Positions 1 through 17,971 of a stretch of 20,544 nucleotides of DNA are shown here, piece after piece (within the stretch, counting starts at the first letter, position 1; each line of letters opens with the position of its first letter). The position numbers and the translations under genes were made by a program. The stretch is from positions 1 through 20,544 of the IMG/VR virus record IMGVR_UViG_3300018876_001667; one strand, given 5' to 3'. The DNA comes from a virus. The notes below the pieces were generated by a model. It saw nothing but the letters and a program-made list of their open reading frames with translations, was not told where the DNA came from and searched no databases.

Positions 1-9
1 AAAAAAGTC

Positions 10-38
10 TTGACATTAGCCGAATTATGTGCTAGACT
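10..38 (+). promoter_or_regulatory. Rightward sigma70-type promoter
   Basis: The sequence shows TTGACA at 10-15, a 17-bp spacer, a TGn extension at 30-32 and TAGACT at 33-38. That is a perfect -35 and a 4/6 -10 with an extended -10 element. Transcription would start near 45 and run right. No gene follows; the first downstream structure is the hairpin plus T-run at 150-185, so a short RNA of about 140 nt is possible. The CTTGACA core is shared with the other promoters in this window. Confidence 0.6.
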
Positions 39-149
39 AGTGGTCTTTCCTTTGTGAAAAAAGTATAAGGAAATCAGTAGGTTATATCTTATTGATTTTT
101 ATGGATATTTTAAATATATCCGACTTGGAACCGCTCCGGAATTTCTGAA

Positions 150-323: not shown

Positions 324-497
324 TGGCACCTCAACCCCCGGGGTGTGGCACCTCAGCTCCTCAGCTCGTGGCACCTGAACCTGCGACGGTTTGGCACCTC
401 GTTTGGCACCTGGTTTGGCACCTGGTTTGGCACCTCGTTTGGCACCTCGTTTGGCACCTCGTTTGGCATTTACCTTGGCACCTCGTTTGGCATTTAG
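324..497. repeat. 12-bp tandem repeat array (iteron-like)
   Basis: Nine contiguous units of consensus TTTGGCACCTCG run from 390 to 497 with an exact 12-bp period. Units starting 402 and 414 end in GG rather than CG, and units starting 462 and 486 change CACC to CATT. Three looser TGGCACCT copies lie upstream at 324, 346 and 369, spaced 22-23 bp. A further in-phase TTGGCA lies at 511-516 inside the neighbouring promoter spacer. The period is divisible by three, so long open frames on both strands (Trp-His-Leu on +, Gly-Ala-Lys-Arg/Pro on -) are probably artefacts. Iterons at a replication origin or a regulator-binding array are the leading readings. Confidence 0.85.
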
Positions 498-500
498 GAC

Positions 501-529
501 TTGACAGGCGTTGGCATCCGTGTTATAAT
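501..529 (+). promoter_or_regulatory. Consensus rightward sigma70 promoter
   Basis: TTGACA at 501-506, a 17-bp spacer and TATAAT at 524-529 match consensus exactly, with a TGn extended -10 at 521-523. It abuts the 12-bp repeat array, and one in-phase repeat core (TTGGCA, 511-516) lies in its spacer. Transcription would start near 536 and run toward the end of the leftward HIT gene. No rightward gene lies downstream, so it would make a non-coding, origin-priming or antisense RNA. Confidence 0.8.
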
Positions 530-668
530 AATAGGTATTGGTTCTGTTGCATAATTTCCGGAGCACATTTACCTACTTCCAGTTCCAACTCCTACCGAAA
601 TCCTATGTTCATGTCTAGTTTAAAACGAAACAATGTCTCTCTTTTCGCCTTAATACCGAAACATTGTC
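530..668. other. Non-coding stretch after the orphan promoter
   Basis: No believable gene is seen on either strand between the promoter and the 3' end of the HIT gene. The stretch contains TCCGGA at 557-562, a hexamer also present at 135, 158 and 204. It also contains near-duplicate segments CGAAACAATGTCTC (626-639) and CGAAACATTGTCTC (657-670). An RNA starting near 536 would cross this stretch and become antisense to the HIT gene unless it terminates. Confidence 0.5.
620..667 (-). terminator. Weak candidate terminator of the leftward operon
   Basis: On the minus strand ACAATGT (667-661) can pair with ACATTGT (636-630), with an inner TTCG/CGAA pairing, and TTTCGTTTT follows. It lies just past the stop of the last leftward gene, where a terminator is expected. 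The stem is AT-rich and the loop is long, so this is only a candidate. Confidence 0.3.
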
Positions 669-1043
669 TCACCAATACTTAGCCTTACTCGGTACTATCC
701 ATCGTATTCCTCCTCTCGGATCTATACAATCTCCCTTATATCTGGGTATTAGATGTATATGGCAATGGGGAACCGTTTGTCCTGCTACTTTACCGTCATT
801 GATTCCTATATTATAAGAGTCCGGACTATACAGATCATCCAATATATACTTAAAATCATCTAGTAAGTCTAACATATCTTTCCTTTCTTCCTTAGTAAGA
901 TCAAAGAAAGATGCTATATGATTTTTGGGTATTATAAGAGAATGTCCTTTACTAATAGGATACTTATCATATATCGCTACGGCGTTTCTATTCTCGTAAT
1001 TATCACCTTTTTCTATTAGTTCACAGAAGGGACAACCTTTCAT
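669..1043 (-). CDS. HIT-family nucleotide hydrolase/transferase-like protein
   Basis: This 124-residue protein has the histidine-triad signature at residues 93-99 (HCHIHLI), preceded by the usual GHSLIIPK strand (33-40). It begins with a CPFC pair (4-7) of the kind that often binds zinc in HIT proteins. HIT enzymes hydrolyse nucleoside phosphoramidates or dinucleoside polyphosphates; the exact substrate here is unknown. The length is normal for the family. The ATG lies in an ATGA overlap with the upstream coiled-coil gene and has an AGGAC ribosome site. It is the last gene of the leftward operon, which also carries MazG-like and HAD proteins, so a nucleotide-recycling role is plausible by inference. 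Confidence 0.88.
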   Translation of the reverse strand: MKGCPFCELIEKGDNYENRNAVAIYDKYPISKGHSLIIPKNHIASFFDLTKEERKDMLDLLDDFKYILDDLYSPDSYNIGINDGKVAGQTVPHCHIHLIPRYKGDCIDPRGGIRWIVPSKAKYW

Positions 1044-2311: not shown

Positions 2312-2583
2312 ATATTATCCATCCTAAAAGGATCACCATAAACTTCTGTATAATTACTCCACACCACTCGTATCCAAGCGATGGCGTAGATGAAGGCAAG
2401 TGCAAGAATACCAGGTTGCCAGTTGATGTAGGCAGTGAAGAACCAGAAAGGCTCACCGAAAAGACCAATAACTCCTCCCTTTAATCTGTCTCTGGGCGAC
2501 TGACTTGCCATAAAGTATAGCGAACCCATGCCGGTGCAAGTAATAACGAATTGCGAAAAATAATCAAGATACTGTACTGTCAT
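2305..2583 (-). CDS. Small multi-span membrane protein
   Basis: The protein has 92 residues. The ATG at 2583 is chosen because it overlaps the upstream TGA as ATGA; a non-ATG start four codons earlier is less likely. Two or three hydrophobic stretches are seen, roughly residues 8-26, 38-52 and 60-76, with aromatic residues at their edges (EPFWFFTAY). It resembles small inner-membrane proteins common in phages, but no defined function or holin-type organisation can be assigned. It is translationally coupled to the HAD gene. Confidence 0.65.
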   Translation of the reverse strand: MTVQYLDYFSQFVITCTGMGSLYFMASQSPRDRLKGGVIGLFGEPFWFFTAYINWQPGILALAFIYAIAWIRVVWSNYTEVYGDPFRMDNIC

Positions 2584-3188
2584 CGGTAGCCCCACTTAAT
2601 GTGACGATATACTTCTTCCCAGTTTCTCACTGGAATTGCGCTGCCTTGATAATCGATGTTATGTCCATGCGACATGAGAAGCGTATCCAGTCCCAGAGAC
2701 ACACCTAGATCAGCGTTGACCATCTTGTCCTCAATCCACACTGCACCGGGATATTCTTCTGCGGCTTTTGCCAATGCTTCATCCTTCGGTGCTCCACAGC
2801 CAAGACAGATTACCTTTTTGAAGGCATTTGAACCGAACAGTTTGTTAAGATTCTTTACCCGCAGTTTCTTGGCATATGGGTTCAGACTCAAGCTGGTAAT
2901 CGCTATGAACCTGTACTGGTACTTTTCGTGTAGCTTTTTGATATAGTATTGTGCATCTCTCAGAGGAGGCAGAAAGCCTATCGCTGCTGACTCATTGAAA
3001 GTATGCACAAGTCTTCCTGCTTTACCACTAGACAGATCAAATGCCTTGTCTATGTAGTAAGAATTTTTATTCTGCAGGTCATGTCCCTGCGTTTCCATCC
3101 ACTGAGTGAATGCAAATTCCCAATCGAGAACCACACCATCAATGTCGGTTAATATTATTTTATCCTGTCTTTGTCTTTTTGTATGCAA
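2580..3188 (-). CDS. HAD-superfamily phosphatase / 5'-nucleotidase-like
   Basis: This 202-residue protein has HAD motifs in order: DIDG (15-18, nucleophile Asp15 and acid Asp17), Thr98-Ser99 (motif II), Lys135 (motif III) and Glu153-Asp154 (motif IV). Such enzymes dephosphorylate small substrates; phage members often resemble 5'(3')-deoxyribonucleotidases, which would fit the MazG-like neighbour, but the substrate is inferred. The only usable start is TTG at 3188: an in-frame stop lies three codons upstream and no ATG or GTG precedes Asp15. The 5' end overlaps the metallopeptidase gene by 29 bases. Confidence 0.8.
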   Translation of the reverse strand: MHTKRQRQDKIILTDIDGVVLDWEFAFTQWMETQGHDLQNKNSYYIDKAFDLSSGKAGRLVHTFNESAAIGFLPPLRDAQYYIKKLHEKYQYRFIAITSLSLNPYAKKLRVKNLNKLFGSNAFKKVICLGCGAPKDEALAKAAEEYPGAVWIEDKMVNADLGVSLGLDTLLMSHGHNIDYQGSAIPVRNWEEVYRHIKWGYR

Positions 3189-4375: not shown

Positions 4376-5626
4376 ATGGCAGATGATACTTCGTATGCAG
4401 AATCGGTTCAGGCACTTTTTTGTGCGGTGGCAGACTATCTAGGAAAACAAGAAGCCTCCACACTACTAGATGTAAAAAAATACGATTCCCCACAAGAACT
4501 GCTAGAAGAAAAGAAAATCGCAAAAGCTATTCCTTTGGCGTTTAAAAGAATTAATGCCCACTATGCAGGAGGAGCTAGATTTTCTCTAGATCAATTGATT
4601 GATTGGATCACGTTACCTAAAAATATAAAATGGTACAAGTCTACAATAATGATAGCTAATCAAATGATGAAAGAAATTAGTGCAATTGATAATGATTTTC
4701 GCTCTATAGAGTCTCCTAATTTTCAAAATCTATTTTATTTTAGAGGAGACGATGAGATTATGCAGAATATAGAAACTCTTTTTAAATATGCAAACAGCGA
4801 ATCTCTTATCGCTGTTCGTGGTACGATGAAGTTTGGAGATGTAAACAAATGGAGTCCTGCCGACATATATTTTGGCAGCACAATTGCAAAGAACAGAATA
4901 AAAAAGGATCTTAAGGAGTATGCAACGCCAAAAGCAAAACAAGCATATTCCTTTACGCTGATGAATAGTATGATTGGAGAGTTAATAGATACAGGACAAC
5001 TTTTACCTCTTTCACTCAAGCAAGCAGCAGGCTCAGTAACTATCAAAAAAGTAAATTTTGAAAGAACAGTCGAAGAAAAATATATTAATAGTTTAAAAAT
5101 ACAAGATGTGGTTTGGGAACCATACAAGGTATTGCCTTGGTCTAAGTTTTCAAAAATTCCAAAAACACAAAGAACTGCTAGAGATTTTAAAGTTAAGATT
5201 AAAGTAGGAGCCTTAACAGGTGTTATAAAATTTAGACACGATCCTTCTGGAGGTAAATTTCTAGCTGAATATGTGCCCGATAAAGGAAATGCAAGAGAAG
5301 GCCAAATAGGATCTGCAAAACTTTTATCAACTGTAATGAGTGTAGTAGACACAACTTCTGCTAACAAGTTCTTGATGGCATATCAAAAAGGTGAGATTAA
5401 ATTTAAAGAAGAACAAAAAAAACTTAATCTCAAAAAGTCCACAATGCCAAAAGATCAGTTTGACCACGCTAGAGGAAACAATAGTGCAGTCAATATAATG
5501 AATGAAGTAGGCCCTATATTAAAGCAATTTTTTAGAGGAAGAAATGGAACTAAATTTTCTAAATTGGTATTTGAATACAGTACTTCTAGATCAGAAGCAT
5601 CAGGAAAATTTGTAATCGCAAAATGA
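4376..5626 (+). CDS. Unrecognised 416-residue protein, probably late-expressed
   Basis: This is one of two rightward genes in the window. The protein is soluble and lysine-rich. The N-terminal 130 residues look helical; an aromatic block KWSPADIYF lies near residues 157-165; around residues 265-300 there is a probable beta-strand region (VKIKVGALTGVIKF). The C-terminal third is basic. No catalytic motif is certain. The ATG follows a TATAAATA late motif and an AGGA site. It is coupled by ATGA to the NUMOD3 gene. By eye its DNA is more AT-rich than the genes to its left, a possible sign of separate origin. Virion component and DNA-binding protein are both possible. Confidence 0.75.
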   Translation: MADDTSYAESVQALFCAVADYLGKQEASTLLDVKKYDSPQELLEEKKIAKAIPLAFKRINAHYAGGARFSLDQLIDWITLPKNIKWYKSTIMIANQMMKEISAIDNDFRSIESPNFQNLFYFRGDDEIMQNIETLFKYANSESLIAVRGTMKFGDVNKWSPADIYFGSTIAKNRIKKDLKEYATPKAKQAYSFTLMNSMIGELIDTGQLLPLSLKQAAGSVTIKKVNFERTVEEKYINSLKIQDVVWEPYKVLPWSKFSKIPKTQRTARDFKVKIKVGALTGVIKFRHDPSGGKFLAEYVPDKGNAREGQIGSAKLLSTVMSVVDTTSANKFLMAYQKGEIKFKEEQKKLNLKKSTMPKDQFDHARGNNSAVNIMNEVGPILKQFFRGRNGTKFSKLVFEYSTSRSEASGKFVIAK

Positions 5627-6123
5627 ACAAGTCCTACTTTCTATTCAAGACCAAGGAAGGTCATTACATAGTTGAGAACAAAGATGTTCACAAGGTTCCT
5701 AAGCCTCGTGAGATGCTCACCCGTGCTGCTACAGTAGAAGCAGTGCGTGACTATGCCGCTAAGAATAGAATAGAGGTTGACATTGACAAAGCACGAGCAA
5801 AGTCTAAGCACACCGAAGAGACAAAACTAAAGATTGGTGCTGGTGTCAAGGCTAACCACGGACACAAAGACGGGCTTACTGAACAGCACAAAGACAAGAT
5901 TAAAAAGACTATGACAGGTACACGCCAAGACTATATGAATCCTATGTACGGTAGAAAACATAAAGAATCTACTAGACAAAAGATGCATGAAGCGTGGAAG
6001 AAGAGAGTCAGAAAACGCTGGATTTGCGGACCCGAAGGAGCGTTCCTTGTTCCTAAGGATCAACCGTTGCCAGAAGGCTGGCAATTAGGTATGAAGTATG
6101 ATAAGTATAGACCTGAGGATTAA
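5623..6123 (+). CDS. NUMOD3-type DNA-binding protein without nuclease domain
   Basis: A 166-residue basic protein. Residues 63-98 and 106-126 resemble NUMOD3 modules, the helical DNA-binding repeats of phage homing endonucleases (for example NPMYGRKH at 106-113). The C-terminus, RWICGPEGAFLV through LPEGWQLG (132-156), matches the small module that often ends such endonucleases. No HNH or GIY-YIG catalytic core is present; residues 1-60 are unrelated. It may be a degraded homing endonuclease or a repurposed DNA-binding protein. The start overlaps the upstream stop (ATGA), and the stop overlaps the convergent gene by 4 bases. Confidence 0.75.
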   Translation: MNKSYFLFKTKEGHYIVENKDVHKVPKPREMLTRAATVEAVRDYAAKNRIEVDIDKARAKSKHTEETKLKIGAGVKANHGHKDGLTEQHKDKIKKTMTGTRQDYMNPMYGRKHKESTRQKMHEAWKKRVRKRWICGPEGAFLVPKDQPLPEGWQLGMKYDKYRPED

Positions 6124-17497: not shown

Positions 17498-17971
17498 TTA
17501 AAAAAATGTAGAAAATTCTATTCCGTTTCCTAGAAGCATACCCCCGACAGCAAAGGCTCCGAGAAGTATCCATCTCCATCTCTCAAGGGAGTGGAGCCTA
17601 TCCTCCAAGTTATCGTGCTTTTCAACCATATGACTTTTTAAATCCTTTATAGCTTCTAGCACTTTATCTACTTCGTTGGTCATTTTTGTCTCCAACTCCC
17701 TAGTATTAGTAGTCAACCTTGAGTGTAATTCTTTAATCTCAGAGTCAAATTTTTTTTCTGCTTGTTCCATATCCTTTTTCATGTCTTCAAATTCTTGTTC
17801 ACCGTCTTCTAATCTTCTTTCATGCACAGCCAAGAGTTGTCCAATGTTATTGGAAACATCTGTAATTTTATCGAGGGCTATTTCTAACTTAGAAAAGAGC
17901 TGTCCCATCTGAGACAGTTCATTTTTTACGACAGCTAACTCCGTGTCTAAACTTTTAACTGTCCTTGTCAT
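17498..17971 (-). CDS. Coiled-coil protein with C-terminal membrane anchor
   Basis: A 157-residue protein. Residues 1-130 are a long charged coiled coil (heptad Leu, Ile and Val pattern). It ends with WRWILLGAFAVGGMLLGNG (132-150), one transmembrane anchor, and a short tail. Proteins of this plan occur in marine T4-like phages near structural genes, from memory, with unknown role. The ATG lies 17 bases inside the upstream gene. It is the last gene before the terminators at 17432-17495. Confidence 0.7.
   Translation of the reverse strand: MTRTVKSLDTELAVVKNELSQMGQLFSKLEIALDKITDVSNNIGQLLAVHERRLEDGEQEFEDMKKDMEQAEKKFDSEIKELHSRLTTNTRELETKMTNEVDKVLEAIKDLKSHMVEKHDNLEDRLHSLERWRWILLGAFAVGGMLLGNGIEFSTFF

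Follow-up and report, generated by a model that had tools for sequence, protein, structure and literature searches.

Why does the longest non-coding stretch in a contig of an uncultured T4-like phage carry a regularly spaced array of short repeats beside a promoter that serves no gene? The contig (IMG/VR record IMGVR_UViG_3300018876_001667; 20,544 nucleotides, or 20.5 kb, the whole of which is the window analysed here) encodes nearly all of its genes leftward on the minus strand, including primase, ThyX, ribonucleotide reductase, dCMP deaminase and a T4-type RNase H followed by small genes, and the best named matches of its primase (~41% identity) are mostly cyanophages together with one Pelagibacter phage. 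The only plus-strand genes, at 4376-6123, encode a phrog_1462 protein and a NUMOD3 homing-endonuclease-like protein; this cassette seems to be present elsewhere in relatives, including directly after iscA (L189 and L190), and is probably a mobile insertion. Positions 1-668 hold no credible gene and are the sole long stretch of which this is true, as had been claimed in an earlier reading of the DNA from its letters alone (hereafter the sequence-only reading). The features of this stretch and of the gene that it adjoins are as follows.

Positions 1-37, minus strand: terminator-like end of the leftward (gene-sense) transcript, an imperfect stem and then TTTTTT at the contig end, as read from the sequence
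Positions 10-38, plus strand: P1, a second promoter-like site, extended (TTGACA-N17-TAGACT, 10/12), missed by the sequence-only reading
Positions 72-84, plus strand: IHF-consensus-like site AATCAGTAGGTTA, a lead only
Positions 324-331, plus strand: first loose copy, TGGCACCT, with a GCAYCT core at 326 that is co-linear with cores at 283 in L084 and 479 in L083
Positions 346-353, plus strand: second loose copy, core at 348, 22 bp after the first
Positions 369-376, plus strand: third loose copy, core at 371, 23 bp after the second
Positions 389-496, plus strand: nine 12-bp units GTTTGGCAYYTN, the first core at 394 (23 bp past the third loose copy), then 12-bp steps to 490
Positions 501-529, plus strand: P2, a predicted extended consensus sigma70-type promoter (TTGACA-N17-TATAAT, 12/12, the -10 preceded by TG), directed antisense to the adjoining operon
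Positions 606-671, no strand assigned: conserved 60-bp block, TTCATGTCTAGT plus two GARACNNNGTTTC motifs, adjoining the stop codon of the gene that closes the operon and likewise missed earlier
Positions 669-1043, minus strand: gene for a HIT-domain protein (Pfam PF01230, E 1.6e-22), the last of the leftward early operon

In Tandem Repeats Finder the array at 389-492 (period 12, 8.7 copies, score 159) outscores every other in the window by a wide margin. Repeat searching recovered, at 389-496, the nine exact units that the sequence-only reading had placed at 390-497, and its three looser copies, as 15-nt copies, at 324, 346 and 369 with steps of 22 and 23 bp. The core is strictly one-sided, occurring 10 times on the plus strand of positions 1-670 and never on the other strand, against a mean of 0.38 and a maximum of 3 in dinucleotide shuffles. 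P2 also proved to be the fully consensus extended promoter with an in-phase repeat core in its spacer that had been described, matching at 12/12 and enclosing a GCATCC core (514-519) that follows the core at 490 by 24 bp. No other plus-strand promoter in the window reaches 12/12; the three remaining 12/12 matches sit on the minus strand, that of nearly all genes, so this promoter class is represented elsewhere in the phage.

General searches did not lead to relatives of the element. Near-DNA search of named phages and distant DNA search of phages and plasmids gave chance matches only, plus one Rhodococcus gene for a Lys/Ala-rich repeat protein; the whole 1-1100 stretch as query had no significant match in relatives, and the exact array pattern was not found in viral contigs. 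Only when pieces of the element were compared by blastn and nhmmer with loci retrieved through the product of a neighbouring gene (window 2580-3188) did it emerge in relatives; these loci included L083, L084 and L087. Pieces of 1-668 matched L084 (nhmmer E 5e-4 and 1.2e-8), L087 (E 1.7e-4) and, weakly, L083 (E 0.36), in each case adjoining the end of an early operon that closes in iscU-iscA or a gene shortly after, and a search of neighbourhoods with the L084 IscA protein added one more lattice member, L192. The lattice is therefore known from four phages, all uncultured: that of the window, L083 (whose 125-kb contig, G011, is the only long contig with the lattice), L084 and L192 (contig G014). 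The sequence-only reading had proposed looking for the array at the same place in related phages, and it does stand at the corresponding place, the end of the early operon, in L083/G011, L084 and L192. Because relatives share this anatomy, an assembly chimera at the contig end is unlikely, as is an IS6-like inverted repeat (133-152/545-564).

Counted in the orientation of the window plus strand, GCAYCT occurs 10 times in the element of the window, nine times in L083, seven in L084 and five in L192, with no occurrence on the opposite strand of any, whereas shuffles of the four elements contain a mean of 0.3-0.7 and at most 3. Allowing the core GCAYYY, the steps between successive cores (in bp) are:

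Window: 22, 23, 23, then eight of 12, then 24
L083: 23, 22, 23, 23, 24, 24, 12, 12, 36
L084: 22, 23, 23, 24, 12, 12, 24, 13
L192: 22, 23, 24, 12, 12

Seven cores are co-linear without gaps between L084 and L083, while placing equal numbers of sites at random gave a mean of 2.9 and a maximum of 6 in 20,000 trials; the window shares eight co-linear cores with each of L084 and L083, a number reached for either pair in 0 of 4,000 random placements. Identity between the cores is at chance level for the window and L083 (14/56) and 25/56 for the window and L084, so the spacing appears to be held by selection while the DNA between the cores is near random identity. Identity within the cores is partly circular as they were chosen by pattern, a problem of which the position test is free. 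A search blind to the hexamer (one degenerate position allowed in each, chained at intervals of 11-13 or 22-25 bp) over ~0.5 Mb of related genomes returned the lattice as the sole non-coding match in the window, G011 and G014, with one coding repeat in G011, and found no chain in G007, G008 and G013 (353 kb). Since distant relatives keep motif and spacing while the intervening DNA has drifted, the element is probably a genuine control site to which protein binds, and perhaps the point at which DNA replication starts, and its cores likely form a binding lattice on DNA. One relative, L087, keeps the flanking block with no lattice and a damaged P2; the product of its neighbouring gene is a 68% match to that of the window, about as close as those of L083 and L084, which indicates that the site is dispensable or replaceable.

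The same conservation bears on whether the array has any meaning at all. The nine contiguous units share flanking letters besides the core, a pattern expected of recent local duplication, but a neutral minisatellite produced by slippage is very improbable: core and spacing persist between phages in which the DNA separating the cores is at or near random identity, and the loose copies have only the core in common. It is harder still to credit a coding repeat, which is what most TTGGCAYYT arrays in public genomes are (KPGA- or AK-type, on the opposite strand). A relaxed pattern did return other arrays from viral and genome contigs, nearly all of them within long ORFs; open frames exist in the window at 311-682 on the plus strand (VWHL) and 321-566 on the minus strand (AKRG), and in the plus frame several differences between units are synonymous. 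However, steps of 22, 23 and 13 bp run out of frame, all six frames of the relatives are interrupted by stops across the lattice, and no homologue of either ORF was seen. Out-of-frame spacing and the stops refute coding for the relatives, and the same two points, 22 and 23 not being multiples of three, uphold the claim that the array does not lie within a conserved gene. Three further candidates were rejected: a sigma54 promoter array (TGGCAC-N5-TTGCW, with an invariant GC at -12), as the next unit has GG for GC with 2 mismatches and neither L083 nor L084 has a match at <=2 mismatches with N5 spacing; an anti-Shine-Dalgarno sponge (CACCTC), against which the core variants GCATTT and GCATCT speak; and a DnaA site, as the element has no good DnaA box in the window, L083 or L084. 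Separately, a 12-bp TTGGCACCTGGC array in L127 (3516-3671) codes on the opposite strand for a KPGA-type repeat in a frame of ~1000 codons, and is a look-alike, not a relative, of the window element.

Could the repeats act in RNA instead? An antisense transcript from P1 would carry GCAYCU repeats that might bind a protein such as Rho, whose rut sites are unstructured, C-rich RNA with YC dimers ~12 nt apart. Every core contains a YC dimer, at a pitch of 12 or 22-24 nt, P1 has a counterpart in L083, and the plus-strand lattice RNA of the window is C-rich and far less folded than shuffles (z +3.9). We consider this rather unlikely, as the cores have GCA in common though Rho needs no GCA before YC, the lattice RNA is not clearly unfolded in L083 (z +0.9) or L084 (z +1.2), and the C-G skew is only 0.04 and 0.10, respectively. 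It appears improbable, too, that the gene-sense (minus) strand specifies a structured non-coding RNA or a 3' untranslated region: the minus-strand RNA folds better than shuffles in the window (z -2.3 to -3.7) and L083 (z -2.8) but no better in L084 (z -0.5), and the GGUGCC self-pairing of the window is absent with the L083 motif AGGUGCAG. Rfam gave no match at gathering scores and a single chance-level match (E 3.1). The candidate terminator at 1-37 is weak, its fold being no better than shuffles, and has a stronger counterpart in L083 at 17513-17537. A role of the lattice at the DNA level is favoured by its position, since the window array lies entirely upstream of P2, reaching >170 bp from it, and the P2 RNA need not carry the repeats, unlike in L083 and L084 where the lattice continues beyond P2; in the window the 12-bp units look like an expansion.

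Predicted P2-type antisense promoters are present in the window (TTGACAGGCGTTGGCATCCGTGTTATAAT), L084 (TTGACAAGCGATGGCACCTGTGCTATAAT) and L083 (TTGACATTCGGCTGCACCTGTGCTAGAAT), and in all three the spacer core has an identical offset, starting 7 bases after the -35 and ending 4 before the -10; in L192 the lattice is present with no clearly recognisable P2. A P2-shaped pattern was found in 100 stretches of viral contigs and adjoins the lattice only in the window, L083 and L084. P2-like promoters with GCACCTGTG occur in many unrelated viral contigs that have no lattice, so the spacer core alone proves little and it is membership in the lattice that counts. P1, at which the window contig ends, lies 491 bp from P2 in the window and 476 bp in G011, where its counterpart is at 31509 (-). 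Apart from the counterparts of P1 and P2, the only strong minus-strand promoter found in G011 is one at 105 kb; just past the P1/P2 pair, a series of nine promoters facing forward begins (31.5-35 kb).

These promoters suggest the closest competitor to a replication origin, in which a regulator bound on the lattice would repress or activate P2, and perhaps P1, the antisense RNA would dampen the leftward early operon, and the site would be an operator only. This is a serious contender that falls clearly short of even odds, nearly as likely on these sequence data as an origin. A protein bound at the conserved spacer core would block RNA polymerase, P1 and P2 are both directed into the end of the sense operon, and G011 has no skew switch at the element. 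Conversely, nine to thirteen sites is a large number for a single promoter that yields no gene product, the window array extends far upstream of P2, and L192 retains the lattice without a recognisable P2. The alternative offered by the sequence-only reading, a regulator-binding array that controls the promoter, is accordingly backed by the shared spacer core in three phages and weakened by L192.

The main proposal of that reading, a transcript-primed origin, fared similarly, in that the array recurs in relatives and lies outside conserved genes, while the GC-skew switch expected of an origin is absent, as is any change of gene strand, at the element in the 125-kb G011. T4 oriA and oriC also lack a strand or skew switch, so its absence is not decisive. 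An origin is further supported by the single-copy, non-coding, same-strand character of the lattice, its iteron-like pitch, an early promoter without a gene, and IHF-consensus sites, of which the element has one in the window, two in L083 and three in L084 (~0.24 per kb genome-wide in G011). AT content reaches 78% at 51-125 in the window and 74% in a stretch in L083, with no such stretch in L084. A single-copy site serving no gene would fit a cis-acting replication site better than an operator. Against an origin stand, besides the missing skew and strand switch, the lack of a recognised initiator gene and the state of L087; as T4 has several origins, the loss of one would be tolerable. The want of a clear P2 in L192, and the position of the window array, which leaves the repeats out of the predicted P2 RNA, also count against this reading.

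The parallel that the sequence-only reading drew with T4 oriE was correct as to the literature, which describes a cluster of evenly spaced 12-nt direct repeats and dependence on an early-mode promoter, and also states that the role of the repeats is ill defined and their link to origin activity never demonstrated (PMC3016281). As in oriE, the element has direct repeats upstream of an early-mode promoter with a transcript antisense to neighbouring genes in a T4-like phage (PMC3016281); the predicted P2 and its counterparts in L083 and L084 would each be such an early sigma70-type promoter antisense to flanking genes. The parallel does not extend to the repeats themselves, as in T4 (L185, NC_000866; ~4408-4600) the '12-nt iterons' seem to fall on the codons for the VxGxxxxx octapeptide repeats of gp5 (VEGN-type) at a 24-nt pitch, so that conservation among T4 relatives may reflect protein rather than replication. 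The oriE repeats lie in gene 5 and are coding, whereas the window element is non-coding with steps of 12 and 22-23 bp and another core, and oriE is near a transcription-strand switch, which the element in G011 is not. We therefore claim no homology with oriE, and tblastn of T4 RepEA and RepEB gave no match below E 0.88 in the window or its relatives.

Outside T4, an iteron pitch of 22-24 bp is usual, and the R6K gamma, RK2, pSC101 iteron and lambda O-type origins resemble the element in having short repeats in one orientation at about this pitch, with a promoter within or beside the array; the element has such same-orientation repeats at a regular and conserved pitch, and IHF-like sites nearby in two relatives. 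It differs from iteron origins in cores of only ~6 bp, in having half of the lattice at 12 bp, in the want of a good DnaA box, and in that no initiator gene was recognised beside the array, the nearest window genes including those for HIT and MazG domains. In parC of plasmid R1, ParR iterons lie on either side of the par promoter, and L083 and L084 likewise have short direct repeats flanking a promoter; unlike parC, P2 drives no recognisable ParM or ParR gene, the gene set is T4-like, and the window repeats are one-sided. A literature search on iterons in myoviruses returned nothing for this lineage.

The motif, its single orientation and conserved spacing, the predicted promoter with its spacer core, the place at the end of an early operon and the lack of coding capacity in relatives are observed; protein binding, control of P2 by that binding, and a part in replication rather than in transcription control only are inferred. 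A sequence-specific DNA-binding protein, of phage or host, would assemble side by side along the GCAYCT lattice, and the set distances (~22-23 bp in one half, 12 or 24 bp in the other) would place it over or next to P2. The protein array may open or mark the site, P2 would make a short untranslated RNA directed away from the array, and the outcome could be a gated replication origin of the transcription-primed or transcription-activated kind. Our preferred, tentative reading is an iteron-type site where protein binds over the antisense promoter, most plausibly an origin or origin control site; that the element is itself an origin is possible at slightly under even odds. More doubtful is the specific form in which an initiator-dependent iteron origin combines the spacing code (22-23-23, then 12/24) and the antisense promoter in one nucleoprotein switch. 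To our knowledge, an iteron-type, initiator-dependent origin with a built-in antisense promoter switch has not been established in any T4-like phage. In T4 oriE the repeats are confounded with coding sequence, whereas the window-type array is non-coding and single-copy with spacing apparently under selection, which makes iteron-type control of replication or early transcription in T4-like phages directly testable. Conserved spacing, rather than sequence alignment, can expose such sites in fast-evolving phage DNA.

The block beside the operon end is a second conserved component. Its two GARACNNNGTTTC half-palindromes are 31 bp apart (window 627-639 and 658-670), the pair is conserved by alignment in four phages (the window; L083 16888-16931; L084 11751-11794; L087 16327-16370), and the block with the pair occurs once per genome in G011 and the window. 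The IHF-consensus-like ATCAANNACTTA recurs in this phage group, often intergenic near promoters or terminators, at 23280, 23316, 31410, 31437 and 62217 in G011 and at several sites each in L120 and G013. In other relatives, different short tandem repeats (10-12 bp) occupy the gene-poor, non-coding junction that lies downstream in the same gene neighbourhood:

L120 6097-6146 and L091 12930-12960: TGACTCAGGGC, 11 bp period
L090 12269-12299: AGCGTAGCCC, 10 bp period
L095 13926-13997 and L096 4508-4620: TACACA runs
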